Part shown: piece after piece, positions 5,060 to 63,382 of the stretch
Numbering within the stretch: position 1 is the stretch's first letter
How the letters are laid out: each line of letters starts with the position of its first letter
DNA from: Paludisphaera rhizosphaerae
GTDB taxonomy: Bacteria; Planctomycetota; Planctomycetia; Isosphaerales; Isosphaeraceae
DNA length: 64,000 nt
NCBI RefSeq assembly: GCF_011065895.1
Contig: NZ_JAALCR010000026.1
Span: forward strand, 26,587 to 90,586
Direction: 5' to 3'
Program-made: the position numbers and the translations under genes
The notes under the pieces: model-generated
The model's input: the letters and a program-made list of their open reading frames with translations, nothing else
Told to the model about the DNA's origin: nothing
Databases searched by the model: none

Positions 5060-5802
5060 TTCGCCTTGCCCTGGGCGGCGACCGCGGCGGCCTTCTTGGC
5101 GATCTCGTCCTGGTCGCCCAGGTAGTAGTTCTTGATCGGCTTGAGGTCGTCGGTCAGCTCATAAACGAGCGGGATGCCCGTCGGGATGTTGAGGCCGACG
5201 ATGTCGTCGTCGGAGATCCCGTCGAGGTACTTCACCAGCGCCCGGAGGCTGTTGCCGTGGGCGGCGATGATGACCCGCTTCCCGGACTTGATGGCCGGGG
5301 CGATCGTCTCGTTCCAGTAGGGGAGGACCCGTGCGACCGTGTCCTTGAGGCACTCGGTCTTGGGGAGCTCAGCCTTGGTCAGTCCGGCGTAACGGGGGTC
5401 GGTGCCGGGATAGCGGGGGTCGGACTCCTCCAGGGCCGGCGGAGGCGTGTCGTAGCTGCGGCGCCATACGAGGACCTGCTCATCGCCGTACTTGGCGGCC
5501 GTCTGGGCCTTGTTCAGCCCCTGGAGCGCCCCGTAGTGCCGCTCGTTGAGCCGCCACGTCTTGAAGACCGGGAGCCACATCTGGTCCAGCTCGTCGAGCG
5601 TGTACCAGAGGGTGCGGATCGCCCGCTTGAGGACCGACGTGTAGGCCACGTCGAACGCGAACCCCTCCGCCTTGAGCACCTCGCCGGCCTTCTTGGCCTC
5701 GACCTTCCCCTGATCCGACAGGTCGACGTCGTACCAGCCGGTGAACAGGTTCTCTTTGTTCCAGATGCTTTCGCCGTGGCGCAACAGGACGATCTTGGGC
5801 AT
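5056..5802 (-). CDS. gpmA: 2,3-bisphosphoglycerate-dependent phosphoglycerate mutase
   Basis: A 248-residue cofactor-dependent phosphoglycerate mutase interconverting 3- and 2-phosphoglycerate in glycolysis. The phosphohistidine motif [10 protein letters not shown] has His9. The ERHYGALQG segment carries the acid/base glutamate, and the second histidine is in [16 protein letters not shown]. The length matches the family. It is first in a two-gene minus-strand operon with the DUF1697 gene. The C-terminal Ala/Lys-rich tail ([14 protein letters not shown]) is slightly longer than usual. High confidence. Confidence 0.96.
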
Positions 5803-47195: not shown

Positions 47196-48494
47196 ATGCC
47201 CGCCACCGAAGCGCAGATCCGCGCCAATCGCGCCAACGCTCAGAAGTCGACCGGGCCTCGGACCGAGGCCGGCAAGGCCCAGAGTCGACTCAACGCTCTG
47301 AAGCACGGCGTCCGTTCCAGGACGACGCCCCTGGTTCTGCCCCAGGAAGACCCGGCCGAACTGGAAGCCCGGATCCGCGACTGGATGGAGGACTGCCAGC
47401 CGACGAACGCCGTCGAGCAGGAACTGGTCGTCCGCGCGGCGCGGGCCTCGTGGGCGCTCGATCGGGCCGAGCGGTTCGAGACCGCCCTGCTCTCCCGCCG
47501 CGTCCGCAAGGCGATGCTCCAATCACGGACGAAACGAACGGCGAAGGTCGGCGATCTGGGACGGAAGCTCTTCGCTCTGGCCGGTCGAGGCCCCCTGCCG
47601 AGCTCCCTTCCCGACGATCCGGCCGCGTTCGTCGCCGCCCTGGAGGAATCGCCCGAGGGCGTGCGCTGGTTGATCGCGCGATGGTCGGAAATCGACTGCC
47701 TGATCCGTTCAGACCAGCCCTGGACGTTCGGTGATCAGTACAGGTTCGTCCGGCTGCTGGGAAAGCAGCCCCGCGACGCGGTCGACGACCCCGAGTTGAA
47801 CGCCGTCTTCCTGGCCTGGGAGGTCGCCGAGGAGGGCTGGGGCGTCGACTTCTGGAAGAAGATGCTGGACATCACCGCCTACGACGAACCCGCCTTCAAC
47901 TCCTGGCGCACGTGGCGCGAGATCGCCCCTCGCCCCGCCGACCCGGACGCGGCCATCGCGATGCTGCGGGAAATCGTCGACGGTCAAGTCGAACGACTGG
48001 AGGTCCTGGCGGTCGAGCTGAATGAGATCGAGGGCGAGAACGCCGTCGAAACAGCCGAACGGGCGTCGTTCGCCGTCGACGACACCGGCGAACGCCTGCA
48101 CCGGTTCCAGACCGCCCGCGCCCGCGAACTGATCAAGACCGTCGAGACTCTAGCCCGCCTCCGCAGGGAAGCCGGTCGGCCGGAGCCTCGCAAGGTCGCG
48201 ACGCAGGAGAATTCGCCGAACGAACCCGCCGCCGCGACGCCCGAAACGACGATTCAACATGAAGTTAAGATACAAAGCGACGATCCGTCGATCGACGAAC
48301 GAACCCGTCCGGCGGCGACGGGCGGACCTCGGCTGCGGGTGGTCGCCAGGGATGGAAAAGGCGAAGGCCCGAGGGGGACGCCCTCGGGCCTTCGGGATGG
48401 TGGTCAGGTTGCGACGGGCGGAAGCCGGATCAGCTCCGCTTCTTCCGCATCGAAGCGAGCCGGACGCCGTCGAAAGACTGGATCGCCTGGCTGA
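47196..48494 (+). CDS. planctomycete 'ANRANAQKSTGPRT' family protein
   Basis: A 432-residue protein opening with AQIRANRANAQKSTGPRT..GKAQSRLNALKHGVRS, the signature of a large uncharacterised paralogous family of planctomycetes. The rest is charged and helical, with predicted coiled coil at about 250-330. I chose the ATG at 47196 (GGGAG fifteen bases upstream), directly before the signature. The last 55 residues look low-complexity, are read through the hairpin at 48364-48392 and overlap the 3' end of the convergent giant gene by 65 bases, so the native C-terminus may be shorter or frameshifted. Confidence 0.75.
   Translation: MPATEAQIRANRANAQKSTGPRTEAGKAQSRLNALKHGVRSRTTPLVLPQEDPAELEARIRDWMEDCQPTNAVEQELVVRAARASWALDRAERFETALLSRRVRKAMLQSRTKRTAKVGDLGRKLFALAGRGPLPSSLPDDPAAFVAALEESPEGVRWLIARWSEIDCLIRSDQPWTFGDQYRFVRLLGKQPRDAVDDPELNAVFLAWEVAEEGWGVDFWKKMLDITAYDEPAFNSWRTWREIAPRPADPDAAIAMLREIVDGQVERLEVLAVELNEIEGENAVETAERASFAVDDTGERLHRFQTARARELIKTVETLARLRREAGRPEPRKVATQENSPNEPAAATPETTIQHEVKIQSDDPSIDERTRPAATGGPRLRVVARDGKGEGPRGTPSGLRDGGQVATGGSRISSASSASKRAGRRRKTGSPG
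48364..48392 (-). terminator. intrinsic terminator of the giant surface-protein gene
   Basis: AAGGCCCGAGGG (48364-48375) and CCCTCGGGCCTT (48381-48392) form a perfect 12-base-pair stem with a 5-base loop. Read on the minus strand it is followed by CGCCTTTTCC, a T-rich tail. It lies 38 bases after the giant gene's stop and inside the 3' part of the convergent gene. Confidence 0.75.
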
Positions 48495-51400
48495 AGGCGT
48501 CGGACGCGAGCGGAGCGGCCGTGGTCGCCGCCGCCGAGGCTGCGACGACCGACTTGACCACGACGCCCTGCGGCGAGGTCGACGACTCGGCGGTCGCGGC
48601 CCCAGCCTTCGCCTTGGCCTTGATCGCAGCCGCGGTCGACTGGGCGAACCGCCCCCGAACCGGGGTGCGGAGCCTGGCGGCGGCGGCGATCTGGAACGTC
48701 ACGGCCGCGACCGGAGTCGTCGAGCCGTCGGCGCCCAGGATCTCGGCCGTCAGCGAGTAGTTGCCGGCGCGGAAGCCCGCGGGAAGCTGGTAGGTGTAGC
48801 CGCCGCTCGCGTCGGCGACGACCGTCCCAACCTTCTTCGAGGCCGCGACGCCCGCCTTGCCGAGGTAAAGCTCAACCGTGGCCCCCGGCGCGGTCGTCCC
48901 CAGGAACCAGGGCTGCGAGGCCCCCTTCTCGGTGGTCGCCGCGAGAGAGAGCGACGGCAGGACGACGGGCGAGGACGCCTGGATGACGGGCGTCGTCGAG
49001 GCCGCCGGAGCCGTCGTCTCGACCACTGGGGCGGTCGTTGCGGTGGTCGTCGTCGTGGTGGTCGTTGCGGTGGTCGTGGTCGCAACCACATCCCCCGTGG
49101 GGGCGGGCGCCACCATGATGGAGGCCGTCGCGGAGGCCTTCTGAGCGACCGGCGACGTCCCGGCGATCAGGGCCGACGACGAGAGCTGACGGTAAGCCAG
49201 CGGCGAATTCACCGGGACGACGGGCGTTCCCGCGGCCGAGAAGACGGCCACCTGCGAGTCGGACCCGTTGGACTGCAACTGATCGTTCTTCACCAGGAAC
49301 TGGCCCGTGCTCGGACGGTAGACGCCGGGGATGTCGTAGCCCACGCCGGCGTAGTCGGCCGGCGACGGGATGTCGCCCGCCTTGAAGACGACCGTCGTCG
49401 GGAAGGGCGAGCCGGACAGCCGGGCGATCGTGAACACGCCGGTCGCCGGATTGAAGACCGCCGGGATCATCTTGTACGGCTGGTTGGTCTTGAAGGAGAT
49501 CCAGTTGTCGTACATCCCCGGCGCGGGGACCTGGTTCGCCGGCAGAGTGGCGACGACGGAGGACGTCGACGTGCTCCGGTTGAAGGCGATGAACTGGCCG
49601 GTCGAAGGACGATAGACGGCGATCTGATCGTAACCCAACCCCAGGTAGTCGCCGACGAGCGGAACGTCGCCGGTCTGCCCGAAGGTGTAGTTCTTGACCG
49701 TCCCGGTGGCGCTGGTCAAGCTCCACTTGCCGACCCCGCCGACGAGGTCGAAGACGCCGTACTCACTGGCCCCCGGCCCATCGAAGTTGCCCACGACAGG
49801 CTGGCTGGAGTTCGCCGTGCCGAACTTGAAGACCAGGCCGCCCTGCGTCGACCGCCAGACGACCCAGGTGCTGTCGCCGGGGCGGTAGGTGACGATGTCT
49901 TCCTTGCCGTCGCCGTCGAAGTCGCCCGCGAGCGGGATGTCCGTGACGAGCCCGACCTTGGTTCCGTTGGGGAACCAGATGGGGACCAGCGACGGCGGAG
50001 TCCGCCGGCCGAACCACTGACCGCTGTTGGCGGACGAGTTCCGCAGGTAGAGGATGGCCTGCGATTGCGACTTGCTGACGGTCCCCGAGTAGTCGAACGA
50101 GCTGCCGGAGTAATCCATGCCGGTCGTCACGATGGTCGTGACGAGCTTCGAGCTGTTGCTCGGCGCGGGGTTGCCGGCCGGGTCGACGGCGGTCGCCGTC
50201 AGGGAGATCACGCCGTTGTCGAGCGAGAGCGGCAACTGGACCGAGTAGTTGCCCGAGGCGTTGGCCGTGACCTGGGCCAGGACCGAGCCCGTCGGGGCGC
50301 CCGTGCTGGAAGCCTGATAGATCCGGATGATCGAGCCGGCGTTGGCCGCCCCGACCGTCCCGGTGAAGATCGGCTTCCGGACGTTGGTGATCCCGTCGCC
50401 GACGATCCCGGAATCGGTCGTCGAGCTGAGGATCAGGGTCGGCGGCGCGGTCGGGGCCGTCGTCTTGATGTGGAACGTCACCCCCGGGCTGGGGTTGTTG
50501 GCCGGGCCGGCCGCGTTGGACGCGAACGCCGCCACGGTGTAGGTCCCGTCCGGAGTGGTGGGGATCTGAAGGACGAACGCCCCGTTCGCTCCGGCCGTGG
50601 TCGTGACCGCGGGCGAGAACGAAACGTAGACGCCGGAGGAGTTCTTGTACTTCAGCTCGACCGTGGAGCCGGCAGTCGTAACGCCGGTGAACCGGGGGTT
50701 GGACTTGTTGGTGTAGTTCTGGGTCGGGTCGATCCCCGTGTTGTCCGCCGCGAGGAGCGACAGCGTGGGATCGGCGGGGACCGTCGAGTTCCCCAGGTCG
50801 GAGGCCTGCAGGTTGATCGTCAGCGTGATCACGTTGCCGACCGCGCCGGCGTCGTCGGTGGCGTAGATCTGGATGACCTTGAGGCCGTTGGTCGGGATGG
50901 CCCCGGCGTTCACCTTGAGGTTGGTGAAGTTGCCGAAGCTGTCGGTCCAGTTGGCGGCGTTGTTGGTGCTCAGCAGGCTCTTGTCGAAACCGCCGATGAC
51001 CTTGCCGTCGGTCAGGTCGTAGATCGTGATCCGGGTGGCGTCGCCGAATCCGGTCGCCATGCTCAATCCCGAGACCCGGAACTGCGACGTGGTGACGATG
51101 GTATTGCCGCTGGTGTCGACGCCGCCGGTGTCGGCCGGGTTGAGCTTCACGGTTCCGGGGACGACCACCGGGGCCATCCGGATGGCGAACATGCCTCGGC
51201 CCCAGGTCGTGGCCACCAGCACGTCGGGGTCGGCCGCCGAGGTCGACGTCGGATCGTAGGGCCCGGCCAGATTGGACATCCCCGTATTGGGATCGATCGC
51301 ACCCAGCGACAGGTCGAGGTCGGTCGTCGAGGTCCTGGGGAGCAGACCGCCGTCCGCCACCGAGCCGTCGATCGATTGGTTGGGGAAGGACGTCCAGGTG

Positions 51401-54400
51401 ACGCCGTTGTCAATCGACCGGTAGACGCCGGAATTCGCGGAGACGTAGAGGACCGGGTGCAACCCCGAGCCCACCGGGTCGGCCGCCGAGTTGGGGATCG
51501 AGTACCGCCAGTCGACGACCATCGCCGTGAGGTACAGCGACTGACTGAGCTTGGTGGAGTTGGGGTCGGTGCTCTGGTCGTAGTTCTGGCCGAAGATCGT
51601 GTAGGCGATGTCGCGGAGGTTCCCCGTGACGTTGATCCACGCCGCGTTCGCGGCCAGCGAGTCGGCGACGTAGTAGACGCCCACCTGGGTCACCGCGTAG
51701 GCCGCGTGGCTACCGCGGGTCGGGCTGGGGACGATCCGCAGGATGGACGAGCCGTCGAGACCGGTGGAGGATTCGGTCCAGGCGTTCCCCGTCCCGCCGC
51801 CGCCCGTCTGCGTGATGAAGATCCGGCCGCTCGAGGTGCCGACGTACATGAAGTTGCCGAGGTTGCCGATCCCGCCCGGCGCGGTCGGGTCGGGGGCGCC
51901 GTACGCCAGGGCCTGGCTGTAGCCGCCGGGGGTGCCGAAGACGGAGGGGTCGCCGATCTGGAACCAGGTCTGGCCCTGGTTCGTGGTCGCGAAGATCCGC
52001 CCGGTCCCCGAGCTGATGATCATCTGCTGACCGGTGAGCGGGTTCACCGTGAACGTCGCCCCAGGCCCGGGAGCCCACTGCGGGTCAGGCGTCGTCGAGT
52101 TGCCGCTCGACTGGATCAGGTTGAACGTCCGGCCCGTGTGGTCGACCTGGAAGAAGGTCGTGCCCAGGTTGAGCGGCATCGAGCCCGGCTGGAAGGACTG
52201 GTAGATCGTACCGGTCCCCTGCTGATCGAACGCGACGCCGCCGGAGTTGGCGCCGCCGGACGTCTGGAACCAGGTGAGGTACCCGGTGTTCAGGACGTTG
52301 CTCGAGGAGACCTGACCGCCGTCGTTGCCGGCGGCGGCGAACAGAGCCGCGTCGACGCTGCTCGCCGTTCCGGCGTTGTTCGGCTGCACGGCCCCGTAGT
52401 AGAACTGGGCGATCTGAAGGTTGCCGTTGCGGTCGGCAACCGGCGTCGGCGTCGTCCCGACGCTCGTTCCGACCAGCTGCGTGCCGTTGTCGTCGAGCAC
52501 CGAATAGACGCCGCGATTGCTGCCGTAGATCAGCCGCGGCAGGCCGGTGATCGGGTCGACGATTGTCACCAGCCTGTTATAGGTGGGCGTGGTCGTATCC
52601 GCGATCGACAATGGGGCGTCGAAGGGGATCCACTCGGTCCCGAAGCCGTTGTTCGTGAACTGCCCCAGCCCGACGGCGAATCGGGTGGCGGTGGCGTTGA
52701 ACGGGTTGTCCGGATCGCGGATGTAGTTGATATAGGTCTGCTGGCTCGGGATCGGGAAGCCGACGGTCGGGATGCGGGTGGCCCAGCCGTTGACGATGCT
52801 GTCGACGGTGACCGGACCGGTCGAGCTCCAGTCGGTCTGGCCGTCGGCGGCCACCGAGGAGAACGTGGTCAGGTTCTGGGCGTCCCAGATCTTGGTGGAG
52901 TCGACCCGGATGATCCCCGTGTCGGAGTTGGCGGCCTCGTAGCCGCCCAGGTAGACGATGTTGGGATTGGTCGGATCGATGGCCAGCGACAGAGCCTCCT
53001 GGCCCCGACCGTTGGTGATCGTGTAATCGTTCAGAGCGATGTCGTTGCTGGGAATCGCCGGAACGTGTCCACCCAACGGCGGCTCGGTCGGGATCCGGAC
53101 CTTCACCCAGTTCTGTCCGAAGTCCTTGGTCATGAACAGGCCGTAGAACCCGCCGTCAGGGCTCGATACGGCGGCGTAGAGCCAGCCGGCGTAGATCTTG
53201 TCGTAAAGCGCGACGCCCGTCAGGGCGGGCTTCGCCAGGACGATCCGGCCATGAGCCCCGTTGGGGTTCACCGTGCCGTTGGCCACCGCCACGTTGTTGT
53301 TGTCGCGGGTGTCGATGATCAGCGGGTTGCCCACTCCGCCGGCCATGAGATTCCAGACCTGGCCCTTGTTGGGGCTGATGTAGACGCCGTCGCCCTCGAA
53401 GGCGGCGTAGACGATCTGGAGGTTGGGGTCGGTGCCGCTGCCCGTGCTCGACGGATCGAGGATGACGTCGGTGGCGTCTCCCGCCTTCATGAGCTGCCAG
53501 GTGGCGCCCGTGTTAAGGCTGCGCCAGAGACCGCCGTTGTTGCCGCTGACCGCGGCGTAGATGATCACCTGGTTGGTCAACGTCGCCTTGGGATCGACGA
53601 CCACCTTGAAGACCGTCGAACCGACGAAGGCCCGGTCGCGGAGCGGCGACGAGATCGGCAGGAGGTTGCCCGAGGAGTCGACGTTGGTGGTGCTGTCGTA
53701 CAGGCCCCAGGTCGCCCCGCCGTCCTTGGAGATCAAGAAGCCGACGCCCGTCGTCCCCTGGTCGGCGTTGCCGGTGGACGCGATCACGATCGACTGGTTG
53801 GGGTCGTTGTTGCGGCCGAAGACCGCGATCGATCCGATGTTCAGGCCGCTGGTCGGACCGAAGTCGGTCAGCGGGATGTAGGTGGGGCCCTGGCTGTCGG
53901 TGGTCAGGAAGTTGGTCGTCTTCCAGACGCCGCCGGTGGCCCCGCCGATGAAGAACGTGTTGCCGCTGGGATCCGAGGGATCCTGGGCGATGGCGCCGAT
54001 CAGGCCGCTCGAGCCGCTGACCGTGGCCGGACCGACCGACGTCCAGGTGTTCCGCGACAGGGCGTTGGACGGGTCGGACTGGAAGATCCGGAAGCTGCTG
54101 CTGATGCGGTCGGCGACCGGCTCGCCCAGGCCCGAGGTCGGCAGCGGCTTCTCGAACAGGAGCGACCAGTTGTTGAGCGTGGCCGTCGTGCCGCCGGTGC
54201 TGGTGATCTTCAGCTGCCAGGCTCCGCCCGAGATCAGGTCGAGGAACCCAGACGCGGTCGTCAGCGGCGTCAGCGGGTTGAACGAGGCCGCGGAGTAGGG
54301 CGGCAGGCTCTGGCTGATCGGCGTGGACGCGTTGTCGTCGAGGATCGCGTCGACGAAACCGCCGGTGTTCGGGCCCTGCGTGAGGCTCGTGAACAGCGTG

Positions 54401-57400
54401 ATGGTCTTCTGATCGGCCTGGCCGGGATGATAGGTCAGCGTGGCCGTCAGCGGCGCCACGTTGGCGGTCGACAGGCTCAACCGCAGTCGGAGCCCGGAGA
54501 GGCCCGACGTGGCGCTCGTCCCCTGGATCAGGAAATTGTCAGGGACGTTGATGGTCGAGGTGATCGTGTTGGCCACCAGCGACTGGTTCACGGTCCCGCT
54601 GTTGTACGTCACCGAGGTCGTCGGGACGTTGACCGCCTCGCCCCGGAGGACGTCGACGCCGGCGTTGAGGTTCGAGTCCACCGCCTGGCCGTAGCGGTCG
54701 ACGATGGTCGGCGCGACCTGGAACGTGTAAGTCCCGCTGAGGCTCTGCATCGGGAAGCCGATGGCGAAGGTCCGGGCGTAGAGGCCCACCAGGCCGACGG
54801 GCGTCACCGTGATGTTCGGCGTGACGCTCATCGACCAGGAGTTGAGGACCCCCACCGATCCGGTCTTGCTGTTGACGACCCTGAGCGTCCACGCCCCGTC
54901 GATGGACATGTTGCCGAACGTGGTCGCCAGGCTGCCCCCCGCCGGTCGGTACGATCCGGTGAACGGAGCCTGCGCGGACGTCACGCTCGTGATCGACTGA
55001 GCCGCCGAGTCGCTGAACGTGGTGTTGGTGAAGTTGGCCCCCGCCCCGCCGACTCCGGAGAAGAGCAGCAGCGAGGTCCCGTTGGGGGCGACCAGGTAGA
55101 CGGACAGGCCGGAGGCCGTCGGGAAGGTGACGTTGAGCGTCACCGTGAGGTTCTTCGCCGTAAACGTCCCACCGTAGCTGGGCACCGTCAACGTCGACAG
55201 CAGAGTCCCAGCGACCGACGACGAAAGAGGCGCGGGAATCGACTGGCCCGTCTTATCGGAGGCGAAGTACTGCGGCCCGAGCAGCGAACCGGTCGGCCCC
55301 ATGATCGAGAGCACGTCCGCGGCCGTGAACGACGAGGCCAGGATGTCGCGGTCGAAGGTGAGGTTCATCTTCGAGTTCGTGCCGTTCAGCACCAGGTTGT
55401 CCGACCCGGTGCTATTGGTCGCCGACGTCGACGCGACGTGGGCCCCCGGCACGATCAGCGGCAGGGTCATCGAGCTGAACGGAGCGGTCAACAGGTCGGT
55501 GATGGTGCTCCCCCAACTCACCGCGGAGGTGCGAGTCGGGTAGGGCGCGAGATAGTAGTCGCCCGGGGTCTTGCTGACGTAGCCGACCTGGAACGGGCTC
55601 TCGCCGGCGATGCCGTTGGCGTTCTCGTCGATCTGGTTGCCCGTCACGAGACTGCCCAGCGCGTTGTAGCGACGGATCCGGTCGGTGATCGTACTCGACG
55701 GAATCACCGCGTAGCTGTAGGTGCCGACCAGGTTCGTGTAGGCCGACGTCGAGCCGCCGTTCCAGGGGTCGAAGACCACCTTGAACATCGTGTATCCGAT
55801 CAGCACCCCCTGGCTGGTGAAGACCTGGGAGCCGTCAACCGGATCGACCCTGACGATCGGCAACGAGACGTACGACGAAGTGTTGCTCGTCCCCTTGAAG
55901 AAGACGGCGATGTTGGCGTTCGTCATCACGGCCACGGGCCGGTCGAAGGTGATGACGAAGGAGTTGGCCACCGGCGACCCGTCAGCCGCGCGGAGCGTGT
56001 TGATCACATCCCCCGGCTGACCGACGACCCCCTGGGTGCTGCCGAGGATACGAGGTCCGACCGCGACGGTCAGGCGCTGGACGTAGGTCTGGAAAGTCCT
56101 GCCGATGACGTTGTTGGAGCTGTCGAGAGTGGACCTGTTCTGGTTGCCCGCCCAGGCGACGTAGACCTGCCCTGCCCCCACGGCCAGGCCCATCTGGACG
56201 CCGAAGCCGTAAGCCGAAGCCGCCGGGCTGACCCCAGTGAAGTTGTCGCCGGCCGGGTTGAGGACGACCGTCTGGCCGGTGATGGCGTCGATCGAGGTCT
56301 GAGTCGGGCTAGCGTTGGACTGGGCGCTGAAGGTGCCGCCGCCGTCGAGGCTGGCCGCCACGTAGATCGCCGACCGCGAGCGGTCCGAGTCGTCGCGGCC
56401 GTCCCGCCAGGACATCACCAGCGTGCCTGTCGCCTGGTCGACGGCGGCCTGAGGCAGGAACTGGGCCCGGCCGACGATCTGCCCCAGAGTCGTGTTCTTG
56501 TTGGCGCCGCTGTAGCCGTCGACCGATCCCTGGTCGTCGTTGACGATTCCCTGGTTGACCCAGGTCACGCCGCCGTCGTCGGACGTCACGAGGAAGATGT
56601 CGGTGTTGTCCGCCGGGTTGTCCTGACCCGACGTCCTGATGTTCATGTAGCCGACGTAGGTGACGTAGATCCGGCCCTGGTACTGACTGTACGAGCCCAG
56701 GGTGTTGTCCTGCGCGACGCTGATCTCAGGACCAATCCCCTGCGGCCCGGCCGCGGCGGAAGCGCGGGCGAAGGTGCCGCTGAGACTGCCTCGAACGTTC
56801 GTGTAGTCCGTAACAGACTTGGTGGCCGAGTCGGCCACCGTAAACGTCGTGGTGTTGGCCACCGCGCCCGACGTGGCGGTGATGCTGAAATCACGCAGCA
56901 CGGGGCCGGGGTTCGTGCCGTTGTTGCGATTGGCGATGATCGTCAGGGTCCACGTACCCGAGACCTGGGCCGCCGTCAAACCCAAGGTCGAGAGGTACTG
57001 GAGGCTTCGATAGCCGTTGGCGCCTTGATCGAAGGCCTCGGTGCGGTACGTGCTCGTATAGGCGCCGGCGGTGCTGCGGTCGTTGACGCTCCGGGCTGCG
57101 CCGTCGTCGAACGTCGTCGGAATTTCGCCGTAGGGAATGAGGTTCGGCGCCGTACCGAACGTCCCTGCCATGCCCATGTTGGCCCCGGTCACGCCACGAT
57201 TCTGAGGATTGGGCGTGGTTCCGGAAGCGTCCATGCCGGGAGAGAACAGAAGAATCCTCACCGGCTGGCCCGTGGCCGGGTCGATGACGCCGGCCGGCGC
57301 GGTCAGGTAGGCTCCCAGCCAGGACACGTCGGTCTGCTGGATCTCCAGATTGACGATCAGCTTCGAGAGCGAGGAGAACTTCGTCGGATCGACCGTCAAG

Positions 57401-58506
57401 TTGACGGGGAAATCCGTGGTTTGAACGATGTAGGGCCCAGACGACGTGGTGATCGCCTGGTTGATGGGGACGCTGCTCCCCGCGATCGGGTAGACGGCCT
57501 GGTACGAGTACCCACCCGACACCTGGGTCGCCTGGATGGCGTCGCTGGTGAAGTTGGAAGCCCGGCCGAAGTTGTCCCAGACCACCGTGGCGCCGCCGCC
57601 GGCCGTGGCGGACGTCCCCTGCGCGGCGACGATTTTGGGAGTAGCCATGGCGTAGACGCCGGCCGACGACGTCCAACGTCCCCAGGCGTTGGCGCTTCCC
57701 CCGGCGAGATTGTTGACCTTAACCGCCCCGCTGAAGGTGTTACCGCCGTCCGAGGACGAGATCACCTGGATCGAGTTCGCGTTCCAGGACGACCCGTTCT
57801 GATTGAAGATCCCCGTGGGAGTCGTTTCCTGGGTCGTCCAGCCGATCCAGACGTTCCCGGCATAGGGATCGGTCTGCGTGGCCCCGCTCGTCGGGTCGGT
57901 GAAGGACGTCTGATTGTCGTCGACGGTCAGCGTCGGATTGAGTACCGGATCCGTCGTCCACTGGCGGACGATCTGGTTGCTGATCACCGCGGTCGGCGTC
58001 CCGCCGGAACCGGTCCCCGGGAAGTTGAACTTCTGCAGGACCAACGCCCCGGACGAGTTCGACGCGTTGCTCTGCTGGGTCAACACATAAAAGTGGTGGC
58101 TGTTATCGAACGCGATCAGGGGGTTGGTCGTCTGGGTGTACCTCGTGAACACCCCGTTGGAAGGCGCGATCGCCGCATCGATCTGCGTACCACCGCCCGC
58201 GATGTTGCTCCCCATCGCGGTCCACGTCGCGCCGCCGTCGTTCGAATAGGACCCCTGAACGAGGGTCGTATTGCCCGGCGCCAGCGACGGGTCGTTACGC
58301 ACCCAGATCGACACCAGGTGATACGGGTTGTAACGGTCCACGACGACCGTCGGGCTGCTGACGTTGCCCCCCGTCGTCGAGATCCCCGCCACCGAACCCG
58401 CTACCTGGGGCGCCGGCAGAATCGCCAGCAACGTCCGGGGCTCCAGGTGCTCCAGCACGGTTTGACGCGCATGCGCCTTCCGGGCCCTCTTCAGCCGGGC
58501 GTCCAT
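48430..58506 (-). CDS. giant LEPR-XLL surface/secreted mosaic protein
   Basis: About 3,358 residues. The basic N-terminus with LEHLEPRTLLAIL (about 19-31) is the planctomycete LEPR-XLL signature of large exported proteins. Sialidase/BNR-like segments (WTAMGSN, WVNQGI, WTSFPNQ) alternate with at least three proprotein-convertase P-like domains: a Thr/Val/Leu beta core ending GAWTLRVV, GAWQLKI or GTWTLTI. A sortilin-like multi-BNR block starts at WTSVGPATVSGSSGLIGAI. Two or three Ig-like repeats follow, then FG-GAP/VCBS-like repeats (LAGDFDGDGKEDIVTYRPGD), a Thr-rich linker and a basic C-terminus. Start at ATG 58506 (AAAGG upstream) is preferred over TTG 58575 or ATG 58560. Likely cell surface or secreted; function unknown. 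Confidence 0.85.
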   Translation of the reverse strand: MDARLKRARKAHARQTVLEHLEPRTLLAILPAPQVAGSVAGISTTGGNVSSPTVVVDRYNPYHLVSIWVRNDPSLAPGNTTLVQGSYSNDGGATWTAMGSNIAGGGTQIDAAIAPSNGVFTRYTQTTNPLIAFDNSHHFYVLTQQSNASNSSGALVLQKFNFPGTGSGGTPTAVISNQIVRQWTTDPVLNPTLTVDDNQTSFTDPTSGATQTDPYAGNVWIGWTTQETTPTGIFNQNGSSWNANSIQVISSSDGGNTFSGAVKVNNLAGGSANAWGRWTSSAGVYAMATPKIVAAQGTSATAGGGATVVWDNFGRASNFTSDAIQATQVSGGYSYQAVYPIAGSSVPINQAITTSSGPYIVQTTDFPVNLTVDPTKFSSLSKLIVNLEIQQTDVSWLGAYLTAPAGVIDPATGQPVRILLFSPGMDASGTTPNPQNRGVTGANMGMAGTFGTAPNLIPYGEIPTTFDDGAARSVNDRSTAGAYTSTYRTEAFDQGANGYRSLQYLSTLGLTAAQVSGTWTLTIIANRNNGTNPGPVLRDFSITATSGAVANTTTFTVADSATKSVTDYTNVRGSLSGTFARASAAAGPQGIGPEISVAQDNTLGSYSQYQGRIYVTYVGYMNIRTSGQDNPADNTDIFLVTSDDGGVTWVNQGIVNDDQGSVDGYSGANKNTTLGQIVGRAQFLPQAAVDQATGTLVMSWRDGRDDSDRSRSAIYVAASLDGGGTFSAQSNASPTQTSIDAITGQTVVLNPAGDNFTGVSPAASAYGFGVQMGLAVGAGQVYVAWAGNQNRSTLDSSNNVIGRTFQTYVQRLTVAVGPRILGSTQGVVGQPGDVINTLRAADGSPVANSFVITFDRPVAVMTNANIAVFFKGTSNTSSYVSLPIVRVDPVDGSQVFTSQGVLIGYTMFKVVFDPWNGGSTSAYTNLVGTYSYAVIPSSTITDRIRRYNALGSLVTGNQIDENANGIAGESPFQVGYVSKTPGDYYLAPYPTRTSAVSWGSTITDLLTAPFSSMTLPLIVPGAHVASTSATNSTGSDNLVLNGTNSKMNLTFDRDILASSFTAADVLSIMGPTGSLLGPQYFASDKTGQSIPAPLSSSVAGTLLSTLTVPSYGGTFTAKNLTVTLNVTFPTASGLSVYLVAPNGTSLLLFSGVGGAGANFTNTTFSDSAAQSITSVTSAQAPFTGSYRPAGGSLATTFGNMSIDGAWTLRVVNSKTGSVGVLNSWSMSVTPNITVTPVGLVGLYARTFAIGFPMQSLSGTYTFQVAPTIVDRYGQAVDSNLNAGVDVLRGEAVNVPTTSVTYNSGTVNQSLVANTITSTINVPDNFLIQGTSATSGLSGLRLRLSLSTANVAPLTATLTYHPGQADQKTITLFTSLTQGPNTGGFVDAILDDNASTPISQSLPPYSAASFNPLTPLTTASGFLDLISGGAWQLKITSTGGTTATLNNWSLLFEKPLPTSGLGEPVADRISSSFRIFQSDPSNALSRNTWTSVGPATVSGSSGLIGAIAQDPSDPSGNTFFIGGATGGVWKTTNFLTTDSQGPTYIPLTDFGPTSGLNIGSIAVFGRNNDPNQSIVIASTGNADQGTTGVGFLISKDGGATWGLYDSTTNVDSSGNLLPISSPLRDRAFVGSTVFKVVVDPKATLTNQVIIYAAVSGNNGGLWRSLNTGATWQLMKAGDATDVILDPSSTGSGTDPNLQIVYAAFEGDGVYISPNKGQVWNLMAGGVGNPLIIDTRDNNNVAVANGTVNPNGAHGRIVLAKPALTGVALYDKIYAGWLYAAVSSPDGGFYGLFMTKDFGQNWVKVRIPTEPPLGGHVPAIPSNDIALNDYTITNGRGQEALSLAIDPTNPNIVYLGGYEAANSDTGIIRVDSTKIWDAQNLTTFSSVAADGQTDWSSTGPVTVDSIVNGWATRIPTVGFPIPSQQTYINYIRDPDNPFNATATRFAVGLGQFTNNGFGTEWIPFDAPLSIADTTTPTYNRLVTIVDPITGLPRLIYGSNRGVYSVLDDNGTQLVGTSVGTTPTPVADRNGNLQIAQFYYGAVQPNNAGTASSVDAALFAAAGNDGGQVSSSNVLNTGYLTWFQTSGGANSGGVAFDQQGTGTIYQSFQPGSMPLNLGTTFFQVDHTGRTFNLIQSSGNSTTPDPQWAPGPGATFTVNPLTGQQMIISSGTGRIFATTNQGQTWFQIGDPSVFGTPGGYSQALAYGAPDPTAPGGIGNLGNFMYVGTSSGRIFITQTGGGGTGNAWTESSTGLDGSSILRIVPSPTRGSHAAYAVTQVGVYYVADSLAANAAWINVTGNLRDIAYTIFGQNYDQSTDPNSTKLSQSLYLTAMVVDWRYSIPNSAADPVGSGLHPVLYVSANSGVYRSIDNGVTWTSFPNQSIDGSVADGGLLPRTSTTDLDLSLGAIDPNTGMSNLAGPYDPTSTSAADPDVLVATTWGRGMFAIRMAPVVVPGTVKLNPADTGGVDTSGNTIVTTSQFRVSGLSMATGFGDATRITIYDLTDGKVIGGFDKSLLSTNNAANWTDSFGNFTNLKVNAGAIPTNGLKVIQIYATDDAGAVGNVITLTINLQASDLGNSTVPADPTLSLLAADNTGIDPTQNYTNKSNPRFTGVTTAGSTVELKYKNSSGVYVSFSPAVTTTAGANGAFVLQIPTTPDGTYTVAAFASNAAGPANNPSPGVTFHIKTTAPTAPPTLILSSTTDSGIVGDGITNVRKPIFTGTVGAANAGSIIRIYQASSTGAPTGSVLAQVTANASGNYSVQLPLSLDNGVISLTATAVDPAGNPAPSNSSKLVTTIVTTGMDYSGSSFDYSGTVSKSQSQAILYLRNSSANSGQWFGRRTPPSLVPIWFPNGTKVGLVTDIPLAGDFDGDGKEDIVTYRPGDSTWVVWRSTQGGLVFKFGTANSSQPVVGNFDGPGASEYGVFDLVGGVGKWSLTSATGTVKNYTFGQTGDVPLVGDYLGLGYDQIAVYRPSTGQFIAFNRSTSTSSVVATLPANQVPAPGMYDNWISFKTNQPYKMIPAVFNPATGVFTIARLSGSPFPTTVVFKAGDIPSPADYAGVGYDIPGVYRPSTGQFLVKNDQLQSNGSDSQVAVFSAAGTPVVPVNSPLAYRQLSSSALIAGTSPVAQKASATASIMVAPAPTGDVVATTTTATTTTTTTTATTAPVVETTAPAASTTPVIQASSPVVLPSLSLAATTEKGASQPWFLGTTAPGATVELYLGKAGVAASKKVGTVVADASGGYTYQLPAGFRAGNYSLTAEILGADGSTTPVAAVTFQIAAAARLRTPVRGRFAQSTAAAIKAKAKAGAATAESSTSPQGVVVKSVVAASAAATTAAPLASDAFSQAIQSFDGVRLASMRKKRS
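49003..49095 (-). repeat. low-complexity Thr-coding tract
   Basis: A run of ACC/ACG codons on the minus strand encodes an almost pure Thr/Ala segment followed by a Pro/Val/Thr stretch, about 30 residues in all. It separates the C-terminal beta domain from the VCBS-like repeats and resembles a glycosylated stalk or linker. Such repeats are prone to length change. Confidence 0.7.
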
Positions 58507-59048
58507 GCGAAGGCCTTTACCAAGACCACGAGAGGGGACGTCCGAAGCACCCGTGCGCATGACCTGGATCTCCAAATCTCACGTTGAGGATTCGCCCTTC
58601 GCCCGGCGACGACGGTGGCGATATAGAGCGACTGCGCGGCTTATCTCGATCGACGCATTGAGCGAATCTATGGTGGATCGTCAAAACATGCCGGTTTATC
58701 CCACCGGTGTCAACTCCCCAAACGACCCATTTTACCCGTCCACCCACCCTCGCCGACCTAATCGCCCCACACATTCTCCATCGTCCCAAACGGACACATG
58801 TTTGTTATCATCCATGCCGCTAATCATCCATGTCAAGTATCTTCTCGTTTTTTATTCGACGGCCTGTCCCAAATCGAAAACCTGCGCGTACTGAGCCGCC
58901 CTCCCCTCCCCTGCCCCACCTGTCGTCCGCTCGTGAACCCGTCCCCTCGCTCCTCCCTTGAAGAGGAACTCTTGGCCGCTTCGAGGCACCGTAGAACGAG
59001 CTTCGTTCTGAAGGTGTGGCGACTCTCACGAGCCGCACCCGTGGTCGC
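58507..59048. promoter_or_regulatory. upstream region of the giant gene, with direct repeat
   Basis: About 540 bases without a supported gene, less GC-rich than the flanks. It should hold the promoter of the giant surface-protein gene. ATCATCCATG occurs twice, at 58807-58816 and 58823-58832 (16-base step), a candidate operator some 300 bases upstream of the start codon. TTGACG (minus strand, near 58683) is a possible -35 element without a convincing -10. The octamer array begins at the far end. Confidence 0.35.
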
Positions 59049-60320
59049 CTTGGAACCCCGCGATCAAGGCCGCCGAAGCACCATGCTCACCCCATCAGAT
59101 TGACGGCGATAAACCGATGTCGCTTGGTGCCAATACCGCAAGGCTTCAAGACGACCGATGAACCAAGGCGCCAAGTTTCCAAGGTGCCAAGAATCACCAG
59201 TCCTCAAGGGGCCTTGAAACCAAGCTTCTGCGAGTGCCTTGAAGTCATGGCTTCCTGGCATCCGAATGCCAAGCGACCCAGGCGTCAGGATTCCAAGCGG
59301 GCGATTCTTCAATTCGCCAGGGCGACAAGATTCCTTGGAACCCAGCTACCTAGCATGACCAATCACCTTGTTTCCTATGAACCCACACACCTTGACGCCT
59401 TGGTATCAAGGCCCCTGGATCAGGCGTCGCCTTGATTCATGGACAGCATGGAGCCTTGGTTTCAAGCAGTGCCGGCCCGCTTGACGGCTCGACGAATTTA
59501 GAGGTTGTCCGCCGGCGGCTCTCGCAATGCCGCTCGGCCGATCCCACGACTCGCAGGGTCCAACCGGTGATTGGAGCGAGCCGCCTGTCGTTCTACTGTT
59601 GCAGATTCCAAGGCTCCAAGCGACCAAGGCCTCCAGATGCCTTGGCACCTTGGTTCCAAGTCGACCGCATCGACTTGATGACGAGTTGTCAATAAACCAA
59701 GTTCGTCGAGGCGATTTGCTGAGGTTGGCGACTGGTTCACCTTGAAGTCAAGGAGCCACAGGCGACATGACGGCAGGATTGACTTGGAATCCACTCGCCT
59801 GGAGTCCGATTCCTCAAGCCCCCAAGGATCATGGCCGATCGATGCGCCAATCTATCAAGGCTTCAAGGTCGCCCTGACGTCTTGGCGTCTGCTAGTCCAA
59901 TGTGACTTGAACTCAAGGTTCATCGTGCGCCATGACGACTTGACGCCCAGGCCCCTTGATCATCTTGGCGCCTTCATCGCTGGGAACCGATGCAACAAGA
60001 GCCCATGGGACATGGAGCGGCTCGATGCCTTGGCGCCTTGCTTCCAGATTCCACTTGGTCGCTGGACGACTTGAAGACGAGTCGTCGAGGTGATCCAGCG
60101 ACATTGGCGTGTCGTCGCCAAGGTTCCAAGGCGAATGGGGACCTCGGTAGATGGGAGCCGATTCGTCGAGTTCCCAAGGAAACGACAAGTCATGGATACC
60201 AGCGACCGATAAACCAGGATGTTAAGCGATCGAGGCTTCAATTCTTCAAGAGATCGAGGCCTCAAGGCGCCATGAAACGTCGGAGCCCAGCGACCCAGGG
60301 ACCAAGGTTCCAAGGCCTTG
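59049..60320. repeat. 8-bp-phased CNNG tetramer array, candidate partition centromere
   Basis: About 1.27 kb with no credible gene, made of CAAG/CTTG and related CNNG tetramers (CATG, CCAG, CTAG, CCTG, CGAG) separated by 4-base spacers, so boxes recur every 8 bases. I count about 60 CAAG/CTTG by hand against about 10 expected by chance. Exact 8-base runs include seven boxes at 59609-59657, five at 59318-59350, five at 60054-60086, four at 59164-59188 and four at 60287-60311; one-base slips separate runs. A box-free stretch lies at about 59492-59608. It ends about 70 bases before parA. RHH proteins bind such 8-base phased sites, so a parS/parC role for the downstream RHH protein is inferred. 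Confidence 0.8.
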
Positions 60321-60393
60321 TTGTAAGGCCGTTTCGCATCAGACTTTCGCCGCGACGAAGAGAGTCCGACCTGGGCGCAGGGGAGGGGGGATC

Positions 60394-61254
60394 ATGAGGA
60401 GCGTTGCGGTCACCAACGCCAAGGGCGGAGTCGGCAAAAGCACGACGGCCATCAACCTGGCCGCCGCGCTGGTCGAGCTCGATCAGCGCGTGCTGCTGGT
60501 TGATGCGGATCCATCGGGCAACGCAGCGCTGGGATACTTCCCCCGGGGGGCACCGGAGATCGGTCTCGCCGACGCGCTGCTGGAAGGCTCGGGACTGGCC
60601 GACGTGGCGATGGCCACGGAATACCCCGGGCTCGACGTGGTTGCTCCCGGCGACCGCCTGGGGAACTGTTCGGATCAGATGGGCGGCGTCCAGGGATTGG
60701 GGCAGGGGCGTGAGTTCCGCATCCGCCGACTGCTCAAAGGGCTGACCGGATACGACGTGGTCATCTTCGACACCAGCCCGGTTCTTACGCCGTTGAACGT
60801 GGCGATCCTTTACGCCGTGTCCGAGATCATGATCCCCATCGATCCTTGCGTCGCGGCCCTCGCCGGCGTGCGGGCGCTCGAGGATCTGGTGCGGACCGTC
60901 AGCGAGTTCCGCCTCGAGTTCACCGACGCCGGACCGCTGGCGATTTCCGGTGTGCTCATTACAAGGGTCGACCGCACGCTGGTCTCGAAGCAGATTGAGG
61001 CCGAGGTCCGCAACTACTTCGGGCCCATCGTCCACGAGATGGTCGTGCCGGCGTCGGTCAAGTTTCGCGAGGCTTATGCGCGCGGCATGCCCCTGATCCA
61101 CTACGACCGCCTGAGCCCGGCGGCCTCGGCTTACCGGGCAGCCGCTCAATCGTTCCTGGAAGGTCGGGCCGCCGAAGCCCCCGCCGCAGCCTTGTCCGAG
61201 GCCGAGAACGAGGACGTCGACCCCGTCGACTCCGAGTACCGCGAAGCCTCCTGA
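60394..61254 (+). CDS. parA: ParA-family partition ATPase
   Basis: A 286-residue Walker-type ATPase for DNA segregation. Deviant Walker A KGGVGKST with the signature lysine lies at residues 10-17, Walker A' is LLVDADPSGN, and Walker B is DVVIFDTSP. No HTH domain precedes the P-loop, so it is the short (type Ib-like, ParF/Soj-size) form that leaves operator and centromere binding to its partner. A Glu/Asp/Ala-rich tail (about 255-286) is added. AGGGGAGGGG precedes the ATG. It lies between the octamer array and the RHH gene. Confidence 0.93.
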   Translation: MRSVAVTNAKGGVGKSTTAINLAAALVELDQRVLLVDADPSGNAALGYFPRGAPEIGLADALLEGSGLADVAMATEYPGLDVVAPGDRLGNCSDQMGGVQGLGQGREFRIRRLLKGLTGYDVVIFDTSPVLTPLNVAILYAVSEIMIPIDPCVAALAGVRALEDLVRTVSEFRLEFTDAGPLAISGVLITRVDRTLVSKQIEAEVRNYFGPIVHEMVVPASVKFREAYARGMPLIHYDRLSPAASAYRAAAQSFLEGRAAEAPAAALSEAENEDVDPVDSEYREAS

Positions 61255-61369: not shown

Positions 61370-61840
61370 ATGAGCAGCCCAACCCGCCGCGGAGGCATCC
61401 CCGGTCCCGAGAGCCGGACCGGCCTGACCCGGCCGAGCATGACCGAGGCCGAATTCGAGCGCCGGCTTACCGCGCAGACCGGAGCAGGGGATCCCCCAGC
61501 AGCGCAGGCGGCCGTCGCCGAGCCGATGGACGCCGACGCCTCGAACGATCAGGAGCCGGTCGGCCGGACCGCGTCGGCGTCCTCGACGTCGCGCGCCCGC
61601 GCCTCGCGAGCCAAGCCGGCGAAGCCCCGGCGCGTCCAGCGGATGTTCGCCATCGAGGAAGACGTTGACAAGAAGCTCTGGCTGTACGCGATCCACATGG
61701 GCAAGGACCGCTCGGAAGTCGTCAACGATCTGCTGCGGCCGCTAGTCGCGTCGATGGTCCTTTACGACTCGCGCGACCGCCGCTCGGGACGAAATTCCGA
61801 CGCCGCCGCCGACCGCGATGCGGAGGGCGACGCCGCCTGA
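61370..61840 (+). CDS. ribbon-helix-helix partition protein (ParG-like)
   Basis: A 156-residue protein with a long, flexible, Arg/Ala/Ser/Pro-rich N-terminal tail (1-88) and a C-terminal RHH domain: beta strand QRMFAIEED, helix 1 VDKKLWLYAIHMGKD, helix 2 RSEVVNDLLRPLVASM. Centromere-binding ParG-type proteins have this layout, the tail stimulating the ParA ATPase. AAGGAGGT at about 61357 gives a near-perfect ribosome site. It follows parA by 115 bases and ends 6 bases before the stop of the convergent rep gene. Identification as the ParB-type partner rests on RHH pattern plus position. Confidence 0.8.
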   Translation: MSSPTRRGGIPGPESRTGLTRPSMTEAEFERRLTAQTGAGDPPAAQAAVAEPMDADASNDQEPVGRTASASSTSRARASRAKPAKPRRVQRMFAIEEDVDKKLWLYAIHMGKDRSEVVNDLLRPLVASMVLYDSRDRRSGRNSDAAADRDAEGDAA

Positions 61841-61846
61841 TCGAAG

Positions 61847-63382
61847 TCAGGCGGAGTCGCCTTCGGGGAAGAGCAGGGGCTGGCTGGAGCCCAGCTTGCC
61901 GTCGCGGATTTTGACTTCCAGGGCGGCCAGGCAAAGTGGTTCGAGCATCTTCTTCCAGCGGCTCAGGCCGGGATTCTCGGCCTTGACGGTCGCCAGGATC
62001 GCGTCGCGTTGATCGGTTGGGAGCTTTTCCCAGGCGGCCTTGAGTCGAGCCTCACGCTCCTCCTGGTCGCGGGCGGACGCCTTGGCCTCGGCCTTCGATT
62101 CAGCCGCTTTGCGATCGGCCTCCTCGCGCCGGGCCGCGGTCGACTTCTTCGCCGCGCTGGTTTCCGTCTCGGATCGGAAGTCGTTCGGCTCCTGGTAGTC
62201 GGACCGGATCGAGGCCACGAGGTAGCCCGCCGGGTTCTTGCCGACCCGCTTGTCCTCGTTGCGAATCAACCAGTCGAAGACCTCGATCTTGGTGAGGATG
62301 CGGGCGGCGGGATGCTCGGCCACGAGTTCCTGGGCGGCCTTGGCCACCACACCTCGGCTCCGAAGCGCCTCGACCAGTTCCGAGGGCTCGTCCTCGCACG
62401 CGTCGACGCCCTCGCCGGCGGCCGCGCCGCGACGCCCACGGATCAGGATGATCCGCCACGTCCCCCGTTTGACGTACGAGTAACGCTCCTCGGGCGTCAG
62501 GACCTCCAGGAACCCGAGCTGCTCCAGTTCGTCCAGGGCGGGCTTGAGCCGTCGCTTCAGCTCGGTCGGCGCATAGGTCCGGCTCAGGCCGATGTGCTCG
62601 CAGGCCAGCGTCCGCAGGTCGAAGTCGAGCCGGGTCCGACGATAGAACCGCTTGTCCAGGAACCGGTACATCCGCTTGGTCGTCGGAAGACGGAGCTTCA
62701 GGTAAAGCTCCAGGTCGAGCTGCTTGAGGTTGCCGCTCTGGAAGCTCTGGAACATCACGTCGTTCCACTTGAAGCTTGAGAGGGGCAGGGGAGGCTTCTC
62801 CGCCTTGGCGGAGCCCTTGCCGGCCTTGCCCGCCCGTGCCGAGGACTTCCGCCAGCGCTCGCGGTCGTAGAGGGTGACGTTGTCCAGGACGTGGAACTGC
62901 TCGTCGACCCAGCTCTTGGCCGTGTTGTCCCACCAGGCGTTCTCGTACATCAGGACGACGCCCACCCAGCGGTGCAGCGCTTCCTCGATCCGACGATAGC
63001 TCTGGCCGCTCTGGGGCCACCCCAGCAGCTCGATCAGCTCGTACCGCGAGAACGGAACCCGGGCGTCGGTGAAGTTGCTGCGACGCTTGGTGAGCTGGAT
63101 CAATCCGACGAGCACCTCGTCGTCCAGCGAGGTGGGGAGACCGTGCTTATGGGTCCCCATGATCGTCAACCGACGGATGATCGGTGGGCTGTCGCGCAGT
63201 TCCAGGCGGTCCTCGAAGACCAACGTCGTTTGACCATCGGGAACCCGGTCGGTCAGAGCGGCGATCGGGAATTCGGCGAGGTTCAGTTCATCTTTCCAGC
63301 CTGCGTCTCCCGCAGTCGTCGTCTCCTCGGTCGGCGGTTCAACGGCCTCGCCGTCCTCGAACATCAGCTCCAGCTCTTCCAT
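61847..63382 (-). CDS. plasmid-type replication initiator protein (RepA/RPA family)
   Basis: A 511-residue protein matching the replication initiator protein A family of iteron plasmids. Conserved stretches are ELNLAEFPIAALTDR, DRLELRDSPPIIRRLTIMGTHKHGLPTSLDDEVLVGLIQLT, RYELIELLGWPQSGQSYRRIEEALHRWVG, FQSFQSGNLKQLDLELYLKLRLPTTKRMYRFLDKRFYRR and an HTH-like LRTLACEHIGL. The C-terminal third (about 400-470) is a charged Ala/Glu/Lys helix. GGGAGCATCGGG precedes the ATG. It should bind the iterons upstream of its own gene and open the origin. Confidence 0.9.
   Translation of the reverse strand: MEELELMFEDGEAVEPPTEETTTAGDAGWKDELNLAEFPIAALTDRVPDGQTTLVFEDRLELRDSPPIIRRLTIMGTHKHGLPTSLDDEVLVGLIQLTKRRSNFTDARVPFSRYELIELLGWPQSGQSYRRIEEALHRWVGVVLMYENAWWDNTAKSWVDEQFHVLDNVTLYDRERWRKSSARAGKAGKGSAKAEKPPLPLSSFKWNDVMFQSFQSGNLKQLDLELYLKLRLPTTKRMYRFLDKRFYRRTRLDFDLRTLACEHIGLSRTYAPTELKRRLKPALDELEQLGFLEVLTPEERYSYVKRGTWRIILIRGRRGAAAGEGVDACEDEPSELVEALRSRGVVAKAAQELVAEHPAARILTKIEVFDWLIRNEDKRVGKNPAGYLVASIRSDYQEPNDFRSETETSAAKKSTAARREEADRKAAESKAEAKASARDQEEREARLKAAWEKLPTDQRDAILATVKAENPGLSRWKKMLEPLCLAALEVKIRDGKLGSSQPLLFPEGDSA

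Follow-up and report, generated by a model that had tools for sequence, protein, structure and literature searches.

The window, i.e., the whole stretch of 64,000 nucleotides of Paludisphaera rhizosphaerae DNA analysed here, carries a parA gene that is preceded by a long array of short boxes and followed by genes for a predicted ribbon-helix-helix (RHH) protein and a replication initiator protein A (RPA), as listed in Table 1. ParA is a Walker-type ATPase without an N-terminal DNA-binding domain, its ATPase domain starting from residue 1. Such a short ParA is a mark of type Ib partition systems, as is a repeat array upstream of the par operon, and both are present here.

Table 1. Coordinates of the features at the parA locus (positions within the window)
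Feature	Position	Strand	Description
Distal lattice block	59038..59493	.	56 CNNG-type slots, 8- and 9-bp steps; from HMM decode and whole-contig scan
Inter-block gap	59494..59606	.	From HMM decode
Main block, outer part	59607..60092	.	CNNG-type slots, 8- and 9-bp steps mixed
Main block, parA-proximal zone	60093..60316	.	28 slots, all steps 8 bp
Leader, last slot to parA	60317..60393	+	77 nt; purine-rich just before the ATG
parA	60394..61254	+	286 aa; PF13614, E 1e-29, residues 1-171
Predicted RHH partner	61370..61840	+	156 aa; variable linker, conserved N-terminal motif
RPA	61847..63382	-	PF10134, E 2.8e-11; not counted in the array system

The 156-aa protein is likely an RHH centromere-binding partner of ParA, as suggested by weak profile evidence. 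It had no match in Pfam or NCBIfam and no related solved structure was found by sequence, while its profile matched the RHH proteins of the sister class described below only modestly (probability 57%, E 1e-4). Its structural model is poor, with a mean pLDDT of 61.9 (40-65 for residues 1-80) and a helix at the place of the RHH strand, a two-chain element that a single-chain model cannot form. The invariant N-terminal motif reads RRGGIPGPE.RTGL.RP.MTEAEFERR.

The RPA gene is convergent to the partner gene. The order parA-partner-RPA, with more than 1 kb devoid of annotated genes before parA, recurs on three complete circular plasmids, namely PALBO1 (Paludisphaera borealis), pPL62-1 (strain SH-PL62), and pOJF2_1 (Aquisphaera giovannonii). 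The partner gene is present in 12 genome records, those named including Paludisphaera soli, Aquisphaera insulae, and Tautonia sociabilis. Beyond the array, two very long open reading frames overlap on opposite strands (48430-58575, minus; 48259-58587, plus); the first, of 3381 aa, occupies the place at which two related plasmids have a giant Ig-like or P-domain gene.

Anatomy of the array in the window

Between 59049 and 60320, 60 CAAG/CTTG tetramers (34 CAAG and 26 CTTG) were counted, compared with a mean of 13.1 and a maximum of 24 in 2000 dinucleotide-preserving shuffles. Pairs at a lag of 8 numbered 21 for CAAG/CTTG (shuffle mean 0.13, maximum 4) and 57 for CNNG (mean 8.1, maximum 20), the region containing 133 CNNG in all. 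The autocorrelation of CAAG/CTTG peaks at 8, 16/17, 24/25, 32/33, and 40/41, with values of 0-1 elsewhere (lags up to 40); the step of the array is therefore 8 with an occasional 9. To decode this lattice, a hidden Markov model (HMM) was built around an 8-state box that tolerates inserted or deleted bases, and 14 orthologous upstream regions, including that of the window, served as its training set. Its gain over base composition amounted to ~3770 nats over 17,780 bp, and steps of 7 or 10 received less than 1%. In the window, 143 four-base slots were decoded over 59038-60316 (1.28 kb) in two blocks, not counting four stray boxes at 57521. When the cost of entering the lattice was raised in a second decode, 56 + 88 slots were returned and the stray boxes disappeared. 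The main block (59607-60316) comprises 87 slots.

The initial annotation had anticipated much of this anatomy. Its ~60 CAAG/CTTG tetramers in 1.27 kb were borne out, its ~150 slots proved a good estimate of the number decoded, the seven-box run that it placed at 59609-59657 is there (with CCAG at 59633), and the 8-bp autocorrelation that it proposed as a check rises far over shuffled sequence. Its chance expectation of ~10 tetramers was low, as the shuffles give about 13. The strict 8-bp phase that it described applies to 119 steps, the other 22 being of 9 bp; an exact 8-base step holds for the 28 slots nearest to parA, and the 9-bp steps farther out belong to the design.

Exact CNNG is found at 100 of the 143 slots; the inner letters of the box are mainly A/T, and the spacers are 56% G+C. 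The gap between the two blocks is present in 9 of 13 close loci (the window counted), among which no sequence conservation of the gap is evident. No sigma-70-like promoter was found in the leader. A whole-contig HMM scan found no second such array anywhere in the 90,586-bp contig, and the complete PALBO1 (111,833 bp) has one array, at parA, with only stretches of 7 and 5 boxes elsewhere. In the 8.05-Mb genome, the pattern CWWG-N4-CWWG-N4-CWWG occurs at 8 places, 7 of which lie inside the array; since the reversed control of this pattern occurs 21 times per strand, it is the clustering that is unusual and not the total.

Arrays beside related parA genes

Orthologues of parA with 62-100% identity, hereafter class A, were found at 21 loci among 45 family genomes, comprising the window, 17 loci of other genomes, and the three plasmids, and all 21 were examined. 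An array lies directly 5' of parA in each of these Isosphaeraceae loci. Lag-8 counts of CNNG beat all 300 shuffles in 21 of 21 (z 4.6 to 21.4), and sequence identity at lags 8+16+24 over the 560 bp before parA exceeded 1000 of 1000 shuffles in every locus (z 5.0 to 14.5), including G033, where lag 8 taken alone did not reach significance over these 560 bp (71 of 1000 shuffles reach it). The number of decoded boxes ranges from 68 to 184 per locus, and from 68 to 134 in the 7 loci outside the HMM training set. The array usually ends 73-79 nt before parA (14 of 21 loci); the distance is 82 nt in two loci, 61 nt in PALBO1, where 15 further boxes were decoded as a stray segment downstream, and 115-117 nt in the four loci belonging to the genus of Tautonia sociabilis.

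At a distance from parA, most letters of the array have diverged. The coding region around parA is ~75-80% identical between the window and six relatives, and the alignment reaches at most ~290 bp upstream into the array. Under laxer scoring, some of the array could be aligned in 92 of 210 class A pairs, over the greatest length in G039/G041 (1220 bp, 61%) and G018/G017 (731 bp, 75%); the longest for the window, with G029, covers the 404 bp nearest to parA at 63%. In the array of PALBO1 (L009, ~5350-5460), near-copies of a ~66-bp unit were noted by eye, suggesting growth by duplication. Across the 21 loci, CAAG followed by CTTG favours a distance of 17 bp over 16 (33 vs 11), and CTTG followed by CAAG favours 16 bp over 17 (30 vs 13).

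The alignments also identify which letters are retained. In 8 pairs chosen out of the 92 with any alignment, the outer C/G of the boxes are 74-90% identical vs 52-73% for the spacers and 50-74% for the inner letters. Alignment of such arrays is biased towards the shared lattice, and the best-aligned pair, G018/G017 (1101 bp), therefore weighs most; here, the outer C/G reach 90%, the spacers 73%, and the inner letters 72%. By this comparison, conservation within the box is highest at the outer C and G.

From its step pattern, the class A array is seen to have two zones, a near-strict 8-bp zone beside parA and, beyond it, one with many 9-bp steps. With steps numbered from the parA end in 19 class A loci (all but G033 and G036, whose steps are almost all of 8 bp), the share of 9-bp steps is 1.6%, 6.3%, and 16.8% in the first three ten-step blocks and 22-37% in the nine blocks beyond. 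At least 27 unbroken 8-bp steps next to parA occur in only 7 of the 19, the window among them, the others meeting a 9 earlier. A model-free count in 13 loci agrees: CNNG pairs in the zone from -301 to -77 number 151 at lag 48 vs 49 at lag 49, and from -800 to -400, they number 50, 125, and 167 at lags 48, 49, and 50, respectively. In the same direction, CWWG makes up a growing share of the boxes, 0.22 close to parA and 0.40 at a distance. The proximal 200-400 bp are partly alignable between close relatives, and thus the strict zone that these have in common is partly a matter of shared descent.

A sister group of loci, class B, carries a parA that is 34-38% identical to that of class A (32% in one locus), with a different RHH gene directly 3' of it. 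The encoded protein is of the GRKIYLPEDVHFRLR... type (8 loci aligned; at the G033 contig-10 locus, the type was shown by tblastn), and among solved RHH proteins its profile matched MatP (E 5e-4), ORF56 (E 0.39), and a CopG-family chain (E 0.67). The 8-bp lattice is found in 11 of 11 class B loci by lags 8+16+24: ten exceed 1000 of 1000 shuffles (z 4.1 to 15.5), and the eleventh, G027 contig 14, was reached by 0 of 1000 shuffles and by 2 of 1000 on repeat. A lag-8-only test over 1440 bp had missed the sister loci L090, L091, and L094, all of which pass the combined lags. At G029 contig 5, lag 8 alone was reached by 4 of 1000 shuffles, and the decode, which mixes steps of 7, 8, and 9, gives no support for a lattice by itself. 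In two loci, all 62 decoded steps are of 8 bp, and in a third 71 of 72, as read by a model trained on the same DNA; a chromosomal control decoded in this manner gives 7, 8, and 9 about equally. Learned without a prior, the box was CTNNAG at two loci and resembled CYNNRG at G024; the box of EP7 pEP7_03 is weakly CYNNRG-like, and the remaining G+C-rich class B boxes are less clear. Like the window, the class B plasmids (e.g., EP7 pEP7_03 and the 23.6-kb A. giovannonii plasmid) have an 8-bp lattice directly 5' of parA and an RHH gene (in the window, a predicted one) 3' of it; unlike the window, they have a divergent parA, another RHH class, CTNNAG or CYNNRG boxes where the box is clear, and, at some loci, (nearly) all steps of 8 bp.

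Outside these two classes, no lattice by lags 8+16+24 was found upstream of four chromosomal parA genes (0 of 4). Among the matches listed from the other families of the class, 0 of 15 parA loci pass this test, the nearest to passing being reached by 75 of 1000 shuffles; for L092, L093, and L095, the upstream edge is approximate, the match starting at residue 3. A clear 8-bp lattice was missing from nine named plasmids belonging to other phyla, with borderline values for Geobacter and Methylobacterium.

Other periods were seen in the course of these comparisons. The planctomycete loci L092 and L093, of another family, have a 9-bp period in the ~300 bp before a class-B-like parA (z 4.1 and 6.2). 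Downstream of parA, a 9-bp periodicity occurs on a plasmid of Deltaproteobacteria bacterium Smac51 (L132, ~2700-3260; z 8.5), and Nostoc and Pseudanabaena plasmids have a 7-bp periodicity immediately 3' of parA (L138 and L136, 2700-3260; z 5.5 and 3.6, respectively). In Rhodococcus aetherivorans pRaL13f (L135, ~1221-1990), a partly duplicated 9-bp lattice of TGCA palindromes stands upstream of parA (z 13.5), which is followed by a 50-aa RHH-like open reading frame; this is possibly an independent lattice centromere of another period.

Proposed function of the array

As judged from sequence comparison, the lattice upstream of parA is probably the centromere of what is likely a planctomycete plasmid. 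The initial annotation had taken it for a centromere of the adjacent pair, and the excess over shuffles together with the linkage to parA at 21 of 21 loci supports this assignment; the arrays that it expected beside orthologous parA genes are present at all 21, the window counted. Two of its details call for adjustment. The boxes are CNNG as it described, with the outer C/G rather than a CWWG core as such being conserved, and the RHH protein that it named as partner has a weak profile match, which leaves the identity less secure than was implied. 

One competing assignment is a replication origin whose iterons are bound by the nearby RPA, which we regard as quite unlikely. RPA lies 3' of and convergent to the partner gene in 19 of 21 class A loci, and direct repeats upstream of parAB in the secondary replicons of Deinococcus are described as an origin together with a parS-like site (PMC7671480). 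However, the array adjoins parA in 21 of 21 loci while the parA start and the near end of RPA are 1.3 to 4.6 kb apart; in the remaining two loci, RPA was not seen in the flank examined, the contigs ending nearby. Moreover, no RPA was seen in the flanks examined at 8 of 10 class B loci, which do carry the 8-bp lattice, and at the other two, an RPA gene lies upstream at a distance. The iterons of Deinococcus, at 18 bp (PMC7671480), are also far longer than a 4-bp box repeated every 8 bp. The partner gene of class A, for its part, stands 3' of parA without exception (21 of 21); since the partner is constant and RPA variable or not seen, the array is to be assigned to the partition pair and not to the replication gene. 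The linkage to the initiator gene that RPA iterons should show was not found, although the same DNA could conceivably also have some part in replication.

That the array serves solely as a parA operator for the RHH protein, without a centromere role, is very improbable, even though it ends within 61-117 bp of parA at every class A locus and its most regular zone is the one closest to the gene; 143 slots over 1.28 kb would presumably go far beyond the need of an operator, every one of the 21 loci has at least 68 boxes, and the CWWG share climbs away from parA. A structural or recombination feature unrelated to parA, such as a satellite-like repeat, a restriction-site cluster, or a platform for nucleoid proteins, could account for the fast turnover of letters away from parA and for the near-copies of a longer unit seen by eye in PALBO1, but hardly for a constant place beside parA at 32 loci of two classes, for outer box letters that are kept better than the spacers, or for a box that differs between the two RHH classes; the chance that the array is of this kind appears very slight.

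We therefore favour a type Ib-like partition centromere, and we predict that the lattice is coated by dimers of the likely RHH protein. The mechanism proposed here is modelled on type Ib systems as outlined in the literature (PMC5016525, PMC9499535, PMC7308502). Each CNNG box would be read by a single RHH dimer, and dimers 8 bp apart would touch, forming a continuous nucleoprotein filament, which the 9-bp steps would break or bend into short clusters of a few dimers. The filament would offer many N-terminal tails to ParA, whose stimulated ATPase activity could then carry the plasmid across the nucleoid. Autorepression of the operon by the RHH protein would act through the strict zone beside parA as its operator. 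On the sister plasmids, a different RHH protein would read the lattice through CTNNAG or CYNNRG.

A more ambitious form of this proposal, which we hold only tentatively and with some doubt, is that the Isosphaeraceae possess a centromere of a new kind, in which degenerate palindromic slots form a lattice that can exceed a kilobase, spacing is conserved more than sequence, a strict 8-bp zone acts in nucleation and as operator, the 9-bp steps of class A cut the filament into ParA-activating clusters, and the box alphabet is rewritten with the RHH class on an unchanged lattice, the same principle having arisen as the 9-bp TGCA lattice in Rhodococcus.

Comparison with known partition systems

The ParG box at parH is ACTC, with a box step of 8 bp, and parH agrees with the window array in its place as well. 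Like the window, where the RHH partner is a predicted one, TP228 parFGH combines a Walker-type ParA, an RHH partner, and degenerate tetramer boxes with spacers (PMC7308502). Such boxes with short spacers are found in the window array, where 22 of 141 steps are of 9 bp; the spacers described for parH are AT-rich (PMC7308502), whereas those of the window are 56% G+C. The window further differs from TP228 parH in its 143 slots over 1.28 kb, its palindromic CNNG box, its 9-bp steps, and its two zones.

The delta/omega/parS system of pSM19035 resembles the window, with its predicted RHH partner, in having an RHH partner and contiguous short repeats, each of which binds one dimer there (PMC9499535). 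Its repeats are described as non-palindromic 7-bp heptads, 7-10 per site at six sites, at least 4 contiguous repeats being required for full activation of ParA (PMC9499535). The window, in contrast, has palindromic slots at 8- or 9-bp steps, with all 143 at one site, and differs in this from the pSM19035 parS. Its array has more than ten times as many repeats per site as this best-studied RHH centromere. If our interpretation is true, we know of no ordered RHH-type centromere that exceeds it in length. Given that pSM19035 needs at least 4 contiguous repeats, the 9-bp steps, which would leave clusters of a few dimers, gain a testable meaning, and the two-zone layout yields a prediction on the number of adjoining dimers that ParA requires, as has been asked for pSM19035.

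In Deinococcus radiodurans, cisII/cisMP likewise form a repeat array upstream of parAB with a parS-like function; cisII consists of 11 iterons of 18 bp, which were probed with ParB2/ParB3 and DnaA, and the available portion of this source describes no 8-bp lattice (PMC7671480). For the Isosphaeraceae, no description of like arrays or partition sites was found in the open-access literature searched, nor were partition studies on planctomycete plasmids. A genome paper of 2017 places ParA and RPA on PALBO1 and assigns as partner a ParB-like nuclease on another P. borealis plasmid, with ParA and the ParB nuclease both required for partition, according to its plasmid account (PMC5352709). If the centromere assignment is true, that account would be corrected, PALBO1 having its own predicted partner gene and a likely centromere. 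The 32 loci, with two RHH classes and different box alphabets on one lattice, would then also constitute a natural experiment in protein-DNA co-evolution. Taken against type Ib systems, the window matches in its predicted protein pair and in principle, and it differs in the length of the array, the box, the two zones, and the re-coding of the box.
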